NCBI GenBank assembly: GCA_022426185.1
Contig: JAKMEB010000054.1
Location: 1 to 43,256 of the forward strand
Source of the DNA: Schleiferiaceae bacterium
GTDB taxonomy: Bacteria > Bacteroidota > Bacteroidia > Flavobacteriales > Schleiferiaceae
Length of the DNA stretch: 43,256 nucleotides
Reading direction: 5' to 3'
Below are positions 3,701 to 43,256 of this stretch, one piece after another. The translations under genes were made by a program, and so were the position numbers. The stretch's first letter is position 1; each line of letters opens with the position of its first letter. Under the pieces are notes generated by a model. The model worked only from the letters and a program-made list of their open reading frames with translations. It ran no database searches and had not been told where the DNA came from.

Positions 3701-5490
3701 GTATCGCGCCAGAATTAAGATTTGCGTATCACATGAATGGGGCCAACCAGGGTGATCTTGAAGTATCCATTTTCGACGGTGCAAGCTGGAGCGTACTCTT
3801 CAGTCAGAGCGGAAATCAAGGAAACAGTTGGAAGAATGTAGCCATTGATCTAACCAGTTTCGCTGGAGATACGGTGCTCTTCAGATTTAAAGGAACTACC
3901 GGCGACAGCTACCAAAGTGATTTAGCTATTGATGCTATTGAAATTGAAGATAATATTGGTACACCTGTTGCAGATTTTGCGCCAGTAACTGCTACGCCCT
4001 GTCTCAATACAGGAGTAATTCTAGAAGACTTCAGTGCAAAGAGTCCCACTGCGTGGAATTGGTCCATCACTCCTGCGACCCATAGTTTTATCAATGGTAC
4101 CTCAAGCACCTCACAAAATCCGGAAGTCAGCTTCAGTGCTTACGGTGCTTACACCATTACGCTTATTGCGAGTAACACGTATGGCGCGGATACCATTGTA
4201 TTAACCAATGCAGTCACGGTAAGCCCCTTACAAACACTTCCTTTTGTCGAAACATGGACCGGGAATGGAGCGGTTTCATTTACTACAGAAAACCCGGACG
4301 GCAGTACCAGTTGGACGAAAGGCGAAGTTACTGGACCCACCGGTGCGAAAAGTGAAGTGATGTACATGAATTACTTCAACTACTCCACCGTTGGTGCAGA
4401 AGACGGTTTATTAAGTGAGAAATTTGACATTAACGGCTACAACCCAGTGTTGTATTTCGATGTAAGTTACGCACCCTATTCTGCGGCCTTTTCCGATTCT
4501 CTGATCGTCGAAGTAAGCACGGATTGTGGAGCAACTTTCACGCGAGTTTATGAAAAAGGCGGTTCTAATCTAGCGACCACGTCTAATTCTCAAAGTCAAT
4601 TCATTCCAGGCGGATCAAGCGATTGGCGCACAGATAGCGTGGTTCTATCAACTACAAGTGGCGACTTCGTCCAATTCCGCATCAAAGGAATCGGAGGATA
4701 CGGTAATAACCTTTACCTAGATAACATAAGGGTCATTTCTTCTGGAACGCCTGCTACGGCTGCTTTGAATGTATCACCCATATGTGAAGACCACCCGTTT
4801 AGTTTTGAAATGAGCAGCGCTGACACTACTGTAAATGGTGTTTTCACTTTAAACCGCCAAGGGTCCAGTTTGCTTTCTACCTATCTAGGAATGGGCTTGC
4901 ATTCGGCTACGCTTACTATTGCGACGGACTACGACTTGGAATACGTTTACTACAATGCCTACACCTTTGTGGCAGACAGTGCAGTTTTAGTTCCTGGGCC
5001 GCAATTAGATGCTGACTTCGCATTGCAAAACACCAGCGGTCTAACCTATCAATTCAACGACCTCACTACGCCAACGCCAACTGCTTGGTCCTGGGATTTT
5101 GGGGACGGAGCCTCTTCAAATGCCCAGAATCCAACCCATACTTTTTCGAGTAACGGACCTACAACTATTAAGTTAGTCGTTACTACAGATTGTGGATTGG
5201 ATAGTATGACTGTGCCGTATTCAAATATTGGACTCAATGAAGAAGGAACTGCTTCCATCGCAGTCTATCCAAATCCTACTGAAGGTATCCTTTACATCCA
5301 AACTGGCGCTGCGCAAGGAAAGATTATGATTCAGATCTTCGGTATGAATGGAACCTTAATTGAAGAAAGCAGCTTTAGAGCTACTGAAGAACGAATCACA
5401 CTAGACTTAAACGCCTATGCAAGTGGCTTTTATCAAGTCAAAGTAACTACCACAGATTCCGTTCAGAATGTGAAGATTACTAAACACTAG
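745..5490 (+). CDS. Secreted S8 (subtilisin-like) peptidase with MAM-like and PKD modules and T9SS C-terminal sorting domain
   Basis: ORF with signal peptide MVRILLFLFTVTSFVAQAQ (ATG 745 preferred over TTG 721). Catalytic blocks VVVGLGDDGDIG, GDHGDHVAGTI, GTSMSAPGVAG; PKD WSWDFGDGASSNAQNPTHTFSSNG; C-terminal VYPNPTEGILYIQT...[21 protein letters not shown]. Confidence 0.92.
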   Translation: MVRILLFLFTVTSFVAQAQLKVQLKSGTYHIENGTYKQLSTTQPTYGVGLWDRAVLAEDKKALTDIGVELGHYLPKNAFEVKIPAGLTSSELQDAGLSAFVKWTPMMKLDGPLSIGDWPEWAVLNDGRVAVQFRTSEYWKVPAFIAQVVDLNAQWHTAIIKPELLNQLAQDDAVLFIQAIEEPGTPENYNSRAAARTAYIQGQTPFDGSNVVVGLGDDGDIGPHADYKGRLTSLAGNSIGDHGDHVAGTIFGAGNIDPTAEGNAPGATMVYYDYPSNLSNVDAHYVSYGIRVTNSSYSNGCNAGYTFYAQQMDKDVRDNAALVHVFSAGNSNGSNCGYGAGSQWGNITGGHKQGKNVIATANITSTDAIATSSSRGPAADGRIKPDLAAVGTNVYSTIDSHTYGNKTGTSMSAPGVAGYFAVLHNTFDVLQQDTADAGLLKAIAMNTADDLGNPGPDFIYGYGRVNARKALKVIQDTQFFSNSITTNDTLTYTISLPAGVNKFSAMLYWTDKEGSINASKALVNDLDFEVTDLTGTTTYEPWVLDPTPNTTTLLYGATRGVDTLNNAEQVTLNAPNSGDYRFTVYGTNIPQGPQTFYIVYAMDMEKNPIAFPHDNAKLTPGANYVRWNGSTSLTWQYSTDSMSTWTTVNLNATGGNRVANWNVPNVATKNAFLRNIQGTDTTVAGPFVILNTPNNLSLDWACPDSIKISFSPVTGATDYTAYILGTSYMDSVYNSSATSMIIPYQPISGTWFSVSGAINTVEGRRAYAVQLPSGTNACPLPRDGGISSLLSPQFVTSCQNPVQPVSITITNPSTQVLDTLPVAMTFGSVTVRDTFYGNLNSYADTVFTFAAPIVWSGTTAQTLKIWSELSGDQNSLNDTVVQSVNYYSSSLYGLPFTQNFDGFSNCGTNTNCGGTVCNLGGNFINLTNGTEDDIDWRTNSGSTASSGTGPTSGTGGSGKYLYLEASGNCEFQEALLYTPCIDLAGSIAPELRFAYHMNGANQGDLEVSIFDGASWSVLFSQSGNQGNSWKNVAIDLTSFAGDTVLFRFKGTTGDSYQSDLAIDAIEIEDNIGTPVADFAPVTATPCLNTGVILEDFSAKSPTAWNWSITPATHSFINGTSSTSQNPEVSFSAYGAYTITLIASNTYGADTIVLTNAVTVSPLQTLPFVETWTGNGAVSFTTENPDGSTSWTKGEVTGPTGAKSEVMYMNYFNYSTVGAEDGLLSEKFDINGYNPVLYFDVSYAPYSAAFSDSLIVEVSTDCGATFTRVYEKGGSNLATTSNSQSQFIPGGSSDWRTDSVVLSTTSGDFVQFRIKGIGGYGNNLYLDNIRVISSGTPATAALNVSPICEDHPFSFEMSSADTTVNGVFTLNRQGSSLLSTYLGMGLHSATLTIATDYDLEYVYYNAYTFVADSAVLVPGPQLDADFALQNTSGLTYQFNDLTTPTPTAWSWDFGDGASSNAQNPTHTFSSNGPTTIKLVVTTDCGLDSMTVPYSNIGLNEEGTASIAVYPNPTEGILYIQTGAAQGKIMIQIFGMNGTLIEESSFRATEERITLDLNAYASGFYQVKVTTTDSVQNVKITKH

Positions 5491-40325: not shown

Positions 40326-40351
40326 AAAACGCCCGCAATTGCGGGCGTTTT
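40326..40351. terminator. Bidirectional terminator between nucleoside phosphorylase and rny
   Basis: Perfect palindrome AAAACGCCCGCAATTGCGGGCGTTTT. Confidence 0.92.
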
Positions 40352-40373: not shown

Positions 40374-41909
40374 TTACTTCGCTACGTTCACAGAGCGTAG
40401 TTCACGAATAACAGTCACCTTAACCTGACCTGGGTAAGTCATTTCTGTTTGGATCTTTTGAGAGATGTCATAAGAGATTTGAGAGGCCATAGCATCTGAT
40501 ACTTTTTCGCTCTCTACCATTACGCGCAATTCCCTTCCTGCCTGAATAGCATAAGCTTTCGTTACACCGTCAAAGTCGTAGGCGACATTCTCAAGGTCTT
40601 TAAGACGTTGAATGTAGCTGTCTGCGACCATACGTCGTGCACCAGGACGTGCACCCGAAATAGCATCACATACCTGAACAATAGGCGAAATCAACGAAGT
40701 CATTTCGATCTCGTCGTGGTGAGCGCCAATGGCATTACATACCTCAGGCTTCTCCCCATATTTTTCTGCCCACTGCATTCCTAGAATGGCATGCGGTAAA
40801 TCGGTTTCTTCATGCGGCACCTTACCTATATCGTGGAGAAGACCTGCACGTTTGGCAATCTTAGGATTCAATCCTAATTCTGAAGCCATTATGGCACATA
40901 GATTGGCTACCTCACGGCTGTGTTGCAATAAGTTCTGCCCGTATGATGAGCGGTACTTCATACGACCCACTGTTTTTATGAGTTCCGGATGCAAACCATG
41001 AATACCTAGATCAATAGCGGTACGCTTACCTATCTGAACAATCTCTTCTTCGATCTGCTTCGTCGTTTTTGCTACGACTTCCTCGACACGAGCAGGATGA
41101 ATACGTCCATCACTAACTAGTTTGTGCATTGATAAACGTGCAATCTCACGACGGACCGGGTCAAAACAGCTCAACAAAATAGCTTCCGGCGTATCATCAA
41201 CGATAATTTCCACACCTGTAGCCGCTTCAATGGCTCTAATGTTCCGCCCTTCACGACCGATGATTTTACCTTTAATATCGTCGTTCTCTATATTGAAAAC
41301 GGAAACGGCATTTTCAATAGCATTCTCAGTCGCTACGCGCTGAATGCTCTGAATGACCACTTTTTTCGCTTCCTGATTCGCCGTAAGCTTCGCCTCTTCG
41401 ATCGTATTCTGAACGATGGCTTGTGCATCCAACTTTGCCTTATCCTTCAAGGCTTGTACCATCTGTTGCTTCGCTTCCTCCTCTGTCATGCCTGAGAGGG
41501 TTTCCAATTCAGCAATCTGTTTATCACGAAGTTTCTCTACCTCACGCGATCTCGCTTCTAGCGATTCGCGCTTTTTTGCTAAGGTCTCCTTGTCACGATC
41601 TAAATGACGCTGATCTTTCTTATACTCTTCAATACTTTTCTTTAGACGTTCGTCTTTCTCACGAAAAGAATTTTGACGTTCAGCCAATTTTTGATCGCGC
41701 TTTTGAACGGCGCGTTCGTGCTCTTCTTTTAGGTTCAAAAAGCGTTCTTTCGCCTCTAGAGCCCTATCCTTTTTTACCTGCTCTGCCTCTTTTTTAGCCT
41801 CAGTTATCATGAGGGCACTGCGTTTTTTCAGTGCGTTTTGCCAGAGTACATAGCCTCCGGTTAAACCGATCACAAGACCTACAACAGCAGCAATTATTGT
41901 CATTACCAT
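40374..41909 (-). CDS. rny: Ribonuclease Y
   Basis: N-terminal TM and long coiled coil; [35 protein letters not shown] domain [20 protein letters not shown]. Confidence 0.97.
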
Positions 41910-41932: not shown

Positions 41933-42119
41933 AAAAAATCCCGCACCTGCTATGCATGTTGTCTAAACTCCTAAATATCAGGATCTGCACTTGCCGTGAC
42001 GCCTTGACCTTCCACTGGAGTGAACTCCCTCAAAAGAGGTGTGGCCTGCTCGTAACGTCGCGAGCGAAGTTCATAGCAACGTGCTCGTTGAGTTTAGCAC
42101 AAAAAATAGCAAGTACGGG
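41933..42119 (-). ncRNA. ssrS: Probable 6S RNA
   Basis: Non-coding gap between zapA and rny. Minus-strand 5' CCCGUACUUGCUA pairs with 3' UAGCAGGUGCGGG (13 bp, two G-U); CUAAACUC (42097-42090) pairs with GAGUUUAG (41970-41963); small CCUGA-UAU-UUAGG hairpin (41982-41970) on the 3' side; T-run after closing stem. Length about 187 nt. Confidence 0.82.
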
Positions 42120-42126
42120 AAAGTGT

Positions 42127-42456
42127 TTATCCGTTTTGTAGGGCTGCATCTAATACAGCTTCCACATCAGCCAGCGCTTTGCCGGCTTGGGACTGAACGT
42201 CTTGAGATTGTTTTAGCGCGATTTCCGCTTTGGAAGCAAGCTGCAGCGCACACATACTAAGTACGTCCTGCTTGTCTTGCACAGCATAACGGCTTTCAAA
42301 CCGCGCTACTGCATCATTTATGGTTTTCACCGCCGCTCTGATCTGCTCTTCCTCTTCCCGTTTAATGGTCAGCGGATAAGTTCTATTCGCAATGGTGACT
42401 TTTATTTTTAACGTGTTCTCACTCACTGAGGTTACGCACTTAACAATTTCAAACAA
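42127..42456 (-). CDS. zapA: Cell division protein ZapA
   Basis: LKIKVTIANRTYPLTIKREEEEQIRAAVKTINDAVARFESRYAVQDKQDVLSMCALQLASKAE; true start may be an internal GTG at 42426. Confidence 0.88.
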   Translation of the reverse strand: MFEIVKCVTSVSENTLKIKVTIANRTYPLTIKREEEEQIRAAVKTINDAVARFESRYAVQDKQDVLSMCALQLASKAEIALKQSQDVQSQAGKALADVEAVLDAALQNG

Positions 42457-42728
42457 CGGTCAATCTCCCGTACCAACTCCGCAATCTTCTCTTCGCTGTA
42501 GGTGTCTTTTGCGGGCGAACCACTTTGGACAGTTAATGCGAGATTACGTTGTTGCAACTGATCTTGAAAATCTGCATGTTCCGCTTGCAAGGCCGCGAGG
42601 GTTTCTTGCAAATGGTCAATTTGTTCTTCCAACTCCTGCACTTTCGACTGTAACTCCGCATTGCGATTGGCCACTTGAGAGGCCTTATCTACCACACGCT
42701 GAAGCACTTCAGAAATTTCAGTAGTCAT
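42432..42728 (-). CDS. Coiled-coil protein of unknown function upstream of zapA
   Basis: MTTEISEVLQRVVDKASQVANRNAELQSKVQELEEQIDHLQETLAALQ; overlaps zapA start. Confidence 0.85.
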   Translation of the reverse strand: MTTEISEVLQRVVDKASQVANRNAELQSKVQELEEQIDHLQETLAALQAEHADFQDQLQQRNLALTVQSGSPAKDTYSEEKIAELVREIDRCLKLLSA

Positions 42729-42744: not shown

Positions 42745-42752
42745 CAAATATA
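42745..42752 (-). promoter_or_regulatory. -7 box TATATTTG for the coiled-coil/zapA/6S unit
   Basis: Exact TAnnTTTG on minus strand, 16 nt before ATG 42728. Confidence 0.55.
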
Positions 42753-42761
42753 CCATAATTG

Positions 42762-42769
42762 TAGCTTTG
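42762..42769 (+). promoter_or_regulatory. -7 box TAGCTTTG for the M23 peptidase gene
   Basis: Exact TAnnTTTG, 4 nt before ATG 42774. Confidence 0.55.
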
Positions 42770-42773
42770 TAGA

Positions 42774-43256
42774 ATGTTAAATCGGTCCCTAATTCTTGGG
42801 TTGTTACTAACGACCTCACTTTTAAGCGCACAATCTACGTTTGCGCCCAGCCCTCCTTTAGATATTCCGTTGGTGCTTAGCGGCACCTTCGCAGAACTGC
42901 GCGGAAACCACTTCCACGGCGGCATCGACATAAAAACACAGGGCCGCAGCGGCATTCGGATCAATGCAGTAGCCGACGGTTACGTAAGCCGCGTTGCAGT
43001 GAGTCCTTACGGTTACGGAAATGCACTTTACGTGAGACACCCAGAAGGCTATAGTTCTGTTTACGGCCACTTAATTGCGTTTTTTCCTGAATTGGAAAAA
43101 TGGGGGTAAGAGCAAGTGCGCGACCGCTGCAAAAACGACGGCAACCTCTACCCTTCGCCCGAACAGTGCAAGGTCACGCGCGGCCAGCTAGTCGCTTTCA
43201 GCGGCAACACCGGTGGCTCTTTCGGTCCACACCTGCACTTCGAGATCAGAGATACT
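42774..43256 (+). pseudogene. M23 family metallopeptidase frame interrupted by an in-frame TAA (43107-43109); continues past window end
   Basis: MLNRSLILGLLLTTSLLSAQ signal, FHGGIDIKTQGRSGIRINAVADGYVSRVAVSPYGYGNALYVRHPEGYSSVYGHL...[55 protein letters not shown] in one frame. Confidence 0.7.

Follow-up and report, generated by a model that had tools for sequence, protein, structure and literature searches.

A divergent 6S RNA very probably fills the zapA-rny spacer of a Schleiferiaceae bacterium

In the window, which is the whole stretch of 43,256 nucleotides analysed here, zapA and rny (RNase Y) lie in the same orientation on the minus strand, and the spacer of 217 nt between them is filled by a rod-shaped RNA. 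The presumed transcription unit and its borders are as follows:

42745..42752, minus strand: TATATTTG, a Bacteroidota-type -7 box and candidate promoter of the whole unit (pattern match)
42432..42728, minus strand: zapB-like coiled-coil ORF that would open the unit (ZapB profile match at E 3e-4, under the Pfam cut-off)
42127..42456, minus strand: zapA, directly upstream of the RNA (PF05164, E 6e-17)
41933..42119, minus strand: very probable 6S RNA (ssrS homologue), 187 nt with its 3' U-run (fold, covariance models R1 and R2, covariation, overlap with Rfam 6S families in relatives)
40374..41909, minus strand: rny, directly downstream of the RNA (RNase_Y_N, KH_1, HD)
40326..40351, minus strand: strong intrinsic-terminator-like hairpin AAAACGCCCGCAATTGCGGGCGTTTT after rny (terminator scan)

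The RNA begins 7 nt past the zapA stop and ends 23 nt short of the rny start codon, at the coordinates, strand and distance from zapA given by the sequence-only reading, an annotation made from the letters alone. That reading had seen no plausible minus-strand ORF here, and none of at least 60 aa covers the RNA. On the plus strand, two ORFs (61 and 73 aa) overlap the RNA, and despite them the conservation of the region is accounted for by helix covariation. The zapB-like ORF is matched by other coiled-coil families as well. Two closely spaced, divergent -7 boxes were observed at 42745-42769 of the window, TATATTTG on the minus strand towards the zapB-like/zapA/6S/rny unit and TAGCTTTG on the plus strand towards an ORF starting at 42774.

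The RNA folds at -67.6 kcal/mol, compared to a mean of -49.8 kcal/mol for shuffled sequences (z = -4.2), and 0 of 200 shuffles folded as well. The fold is a rod with a closing stem, a central bubble and an upper arm, in keeping with the rod of about 160-200 nt expected of a 6S RNA. The parts proposed from the letters alone, namely a 13-bp closing stem with two G-U pairs, a CTAAACTC/GAGTTTAG pairing, a GACG/CGTC pairing, CCTGATATTTAGG and a U-run, are all present in the window. A further proposed stem, GCAC-g-UUGC/GCAA-GUGC, is also present there but is not conserved, being complete in only 4 of 20 relatives, partial in 15 (5-7 of 8 pairs) and absent in the sister genus (1 of 8).

Searching at the DNA level recovered the spacer from 18 additional genomes of the same genus and from one sister genus. 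The resulting 20 sequences (19 from the genus including the window, one from the sister genus) were aligned with MAFFT without regard to structure (alignment A1). A wide alignment of 73 sequences was also used, which is fitted to the model and so leans towards it; shuffles ignore relatedness. The structural parts, all on the minus strand, are listed from 5' to 3':

42107..42119, minus strand: closing stem, 5' strand CCCGUACUUGCUA (window pairs; 14-pair consensus helix)
42090..42097, minus strand: core stem, 5' strand CUAAACUC, then a conserved and mostly unpaired AAC (wide alignment)
42077..42090, minus strand: possible 5'-side hairpin CAACGAGCACGUUG, in the genus only (RNAalifold in the genus; helix 6 of the wide alignment, 50.6% paired)
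42041..42073, minus strand: upper (apical) arm, 5' strand, ending in the invariant GAGCAGGCC (genus alignment; helices 7-11 of the wide alignment)
41986..42015, minus strand: upper arm, 3' strand, with the invariant GGAAGGUC (genus and wide alignments)
41970..41982, minus strand: 3'-side central-bubble hairpin CCUGAUAUUUAGG (helix 12, 79.9% paired, each of its three pairs showing compensatory changes)
41963..41970, minus strand: core stem, 3' strand GAGUUUAG (wide alignment, window pairs)
41940..41952, minus strand: closing stem, 3' strand UAGCAGGUGCGGG (window pairs; wide alignment)

The sequence-only reading had staked itself on covariation in the closing stems among relatives, and these stems covary strongly. 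In the structure-free genus alignment, 15 of the 54 pairs changed on both sides, 96.5% of cells were paired and the covariation score was 0.228, compared to 1-6 pairs, 32-41% and at most 0.052 in slid controls. In the model-fitted wide alignment, 50 of 54 pairs changed on both sides and 84.7% of cells were paired (slid controls: 27-32 pairs, 36-44%). Support is strongest for the closing stem: all 14 consensus pairs change on both sides and 92.8% of cells are paired in the wide alignment. It lies outside the Rfam family RF01685, whose 108 positions run from ACUCAAC to GGAGUUU. The core stem AAACU/AGUUU is paired in 99.7% of cells of the same alignment, with few but compensatory changes; although nearly invariant, AAACUC/GAGUUU becomes AAACCG/CGGUUU in genus g12 (L191, L196), a compensatory replacement where the RNA is most conserved. 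By eye, the core stem of L199 is apparently AAATTC/GAATTT. RNAalifold places a local CAACG/CGUUG hairpin where the GCAC-g-UUGC/GCAA-GUGC stem had been proposed; this hairpin is supported inside the genus only, and in the wide alignment about 51% of its cells pair.

An Infernal-type search with Rfam models had been suggested as a check on the 6S reading. It gave no family at its gathering score anywhere in the window, but homology to the 6S families emerged through relatives. The best sub-threshold match in the window was RF01693, Bacteroidales-1 (27.2 bits, E 0.016, cut-off 60), and RF01685, 6S-Flavo, reached 20.2 bits (E 4.4, cut-off 85), both on the correct strand and in the correct place. 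RF01685 and RF00013 gave no match over the organism's own genome, and Twister-P5 and snoRNA matches near the region were at chance level. No Rfam model reached its gathering score in 20 loci of the window's whole family either; that score is a detection threshold of the existing models and not a biological feature.

We then searched with two covariance models. R1 was built from the 20 sequences of A1; its matches within the genus follow by construction, and those beyond the genus do not. It found exactly one copy each in 111 of 392 genomes of the order. Among 80 loci from named organisms, fetched by rny similarity and including Aquimarina, Aequorivita, Maribacter, Polaribacter and Owenweeksia, zapA was detected in 77 and the R1 match lay between zapA and rny in 73. 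In Flavobacteriaceae, R1 matches covered 16 of the 17 above-cut-off RF01685 matches, the exception being in L159, and in Bacteroidales they covered six of the eight above-cut-off RF01693 matches at E 5e-11 to 5e-4, missing two. Because R1 coincides with above-cut-off matches of both families, the window's RNA is homologous to both Rfam 6S families and joins them. The wider model R2, searched under strict filters in 396 genomes across the phylum, found one copy each in 88. One copy per genome, or two in some clades, is what is expected of 6S RNA, and in the organism's own genome this RNA is the only significant R1 or R2 match. R1 also scored the antisense of one 6S copy (L014 1497-1682, minus strand, 27.6 bits), unsurprisingly for a rod that is almost palindromic, and this match was excluded from motif counts. 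In L159, which is from Capnocytophaga canis, positions 4298-4404 correspond to the Bacteroidales small SRP RNA (RF04183, 103.9 bits) and lie downstream of rny at a distance of about 1.3 kb.

Covariation and the relatives' overlap with RF01685 and RF01693 bear out the 6S reading, and we are highly confident that the zapA-rny spacer encodes a divergent 6S RNA, an ssrS homologue and thus an RNA of a known kind. By analogy with the family, the closing stem, the central bubble with its small 3'-side hairpin and the upper arm would together imitate an open promoter, and the housekeeping RNA polymerase holoenzyme would bind the RNA instead of DNA. The polymerase would be released on transcribing a short product RNA from the bubble's 5' side; the template of this product is predicted to extend through the conserved AAACUCAAC in the direction of the 5' end, and the product would be something like GUUGAGUUUAGCAC. 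In Bacteroides thetaiotaomicron the 6S RNA and its product RNAs have been seen by dRNA-seq (PMC7366714), and 6S RNA has been detected in Flavobacterium psychrophilum (PMC9723704).

How the RNA is expressed is suggested by the signals around the unit. Its lack of a clear promoter of its own, remarked on in the sequence-only reading, agrees with a TAnnTTTG scan of the minus strand, in which the interval from 42745 to the RNA contained no -7 box. The nearest such box upstream is TATATTTG, just before the zapB-like ORF; TAnnTTTG is no commoner in the window than in shuffles, so it is position that speaks for this box. At the RNA itself no local terminator hairpin was called. With the closest -7 box lying ahead of the zapB-like gene and the terminator beyond rny, processing of the RNA from zapA mRNA is plausible; the RNA would probably be part of a zapB-like/zapA/6S/rny transcript and be cut out by RNases. 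Alternatively, a weak 6S promoter of a type missed by the scan could lie in the 3' end of zapA. E. coli ssrS has its own promoters, and inspection by eye shows TAAGTTTC/TAACGTTT-like sequence retained in the genus immediately ahead of the RNA. However, just 1 of 135 relatives has a TAnnTTTG upstream of the RNA. By contrast, clear promoter-like TAnnTTTG boxes stand right before the free-standing Bacteroidales copies, also judged by eye, and we regard an own promoter as rather unlikely.

The position of the RNA is shared widely. As the sequence-only reading had pointed out in support of 6S RNA, E. coli ssrS follows zapA, 41 nt apart, and the window's RNA likewise lies next to zapA, an arrangement known in beta- and gamma-proteobacteria (PMC7641849). 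Twenty regions with R2 matches were fetched, 18 of them from outside Flavobacteriales, and rny adjoins the RNA in seven of these 18 (L268, L272, L276, L277, L278, L279, L282). In each of the six regions tested (L268, L270, L275, L276, L277, L278), Pfam identifies the ORF upstream as ZapA. With zapA-6S-rny in distant Bacteroidota and zapA-6S in E. coli, the zapA-6S-rny order looks ancestral to Bacteroidota and the zapA-6S order would be even older. In L266, L267 and L270, the place of rny downstream of 6S is taken by an ORF that, in our assessment, resembles a YmdB-type phosphoesterase. A YmdB-type phosphoesterase gene adjoins rny in Bacillus.

The RNA is not always retained or fixed in place. 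In genus g11 of the same family (L192, L194) the zapA-rny spacer is about 70 nt and has no room for the RNA, and R1 and R2 found no 6S RNA elsewhere in eight g11 genomes; the 6S RNA has apparently been lost there. The genome G055 also has a short spacer, with an R2 candidate on another contig (L280, G055:C20:17463-17629, E 4e-6). This candidate, away from zapA-rny in a small AT-rich genome, looks degenerate in its 3' half.

These neighbourhoods bear on whether the structure is instead a cis-regulatory leader of rny, for example for RNase Y autoregulation, and not a trans-acting 6S RNA. The RNA ends 23 nt before rny, and its adjacency to rny recurs in distant Bacteroidota. Such a leader is nonetheless very improbable as the sole explanation, given that the Bacteroidales copies exist with neither rny nor zapA beside them and behind promoter-like TAnnTTTG boxes of their own, that the G055 copy sits elsewhere in its genome and that the RNA family overlaps the Rfam 6S models; a dual role as rny leader and 6S RNA is possible. 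An explanation of the region as nothing more than a transcript end, be it a terminator or a repeat, or as a coding-region shadow, as the U-run after a GC-rich closing stem and the two overlapping plus-strand ORFs might hint, can be dismissed in view of covariation throughout the 54-pair rod, the overlap with Rfam 6S families, invariant unpaired motifs, the single copy per genome and the absence of a called local terminator.

Besides the 6S RNA itself, most relatives (L051-L090, L094-L170) carry (C)GTTCTTTAAAATA or close variants between the zapA stop and the RNA, 15-39 nt before the RNA. With one locus per genus, 31 of 43 genera in the order had GTTC[TA]T[TA] (expected: 1.1 genera from dinucleotide shuffles, 0.7 from the rest of the same loci), and GYTCTTTAANA, the published gamma-proteobacterial boxA consensus (PMC5725501), matched 19 of 164 upstream regions exactly (0.07 expected; two of the 19 from distant Bacteroidota; related sequences counted separately). 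These enrichments are descriptive because the motif was spotted in and tested on the same data, the independent supports being the outside consensus and the 16S leaders. In several of the same genomes a like element, e.g. GTTCTTTAACATATTG, lies in the 16S leader, 84-144 nt before 16S. By eye, CGTTCTTTTTATA precedes the RNA in two Bacteroidia copies where neither zapA nor rny was detected nearby (L183, L186), which suggests that the boxA-like element goes with the 6S RNA rather than with zapA. The window's genus has no boxA-like element before 6S, though it is kept before 16S; as the organism's own assembly lacks 16S, rRNA leaders were taken from same-genus genomes. In E. coli rRNA, boxA recruits NusB and S10 and blocks Rho termination (PMC4807359, PMC5725501). 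The element before 6S may likewise act in antitermination, and in light of this rRNA role a Rho-blocking boxA would suit an untranslated stretch ahead of rny. Among the papers searched, none combined boxA, NusB and 6S RNA.

Taken together, we tentatively propose, as a possibility and not as the expected outcome, that the 6S RNA of Bacteroidota ancestrally came from a boxA-bearing zapA-6S-rny transcript under Nus antitermination, from which RNase Y excised it, and that the window's genus is derived. Nus factors would allow polymerase to cross the untranslated 6S segment with no termination by Rho and might help its ends to pair; RNase Y, encoded just downstream, would cut 6S from its own mRNA leader; and the window's genus would have kept the operon and lost boxA. 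If so, the levels of 6S RNA and RNase Y and cell division would be coupled, and the boxA-like element, if functional, would be an additional non-ribosomal, non-coding target of the Nus antitermination complex. The zapA-6S-rny operon placement, usually accompanied in relatives by an rRNA-type antitermination signal, looks unreported; earlier 6S surveys may mention the neighbourhood. It is this linkage of boxA and RNase Y that is worth following. For annotation, R1 fills a blind spot, since Rfam models miss the 6S RNA in this genome's whole family and in many other Bacteroidota, and it joins 6S-Flavo with Bacteroidales-1 in a single family and supplies the closing stem that was missing.

Compared with known systems, the window's RNA and E. 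coli ssrS (RF00013) show no sequence-level match in either direction, including R2 against ssrS. The two share size, a rod with a central bubble and a place directly after zapA in the same orientation, followed in E. coli by fau/ygfA instead of rny; the shared zapA-6S order argues for common descent of 6S RNAs that sequence search does not link. Bacteroidales-1, or 6S-Bacteroidales (RF01693), is the best sub-threshold family in the window and the one of which R1 recovers six of eight above-cut-off copies, but its Bacteroidales copies have no zapA or rny within 1.5 kb, unlike the window's RNA. 6S-Flavo (RF01685) occupies the same zapA-rny spacer and has the same conserved ACUCAAC ... GGAGUUU core; its model is this 108-position core without the closing stem, which covaries in the window's RNA. 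Finally, the boxA-like element of the relatives resembles the boxA of rRNA leaders and suhB (PMC5725501) in its fit to the gamma-proteobacterial consensus and its likeness to 16S leaders of the same genomes, and differs in that it precedes a 6S RNA, where its antitermination function is putative.
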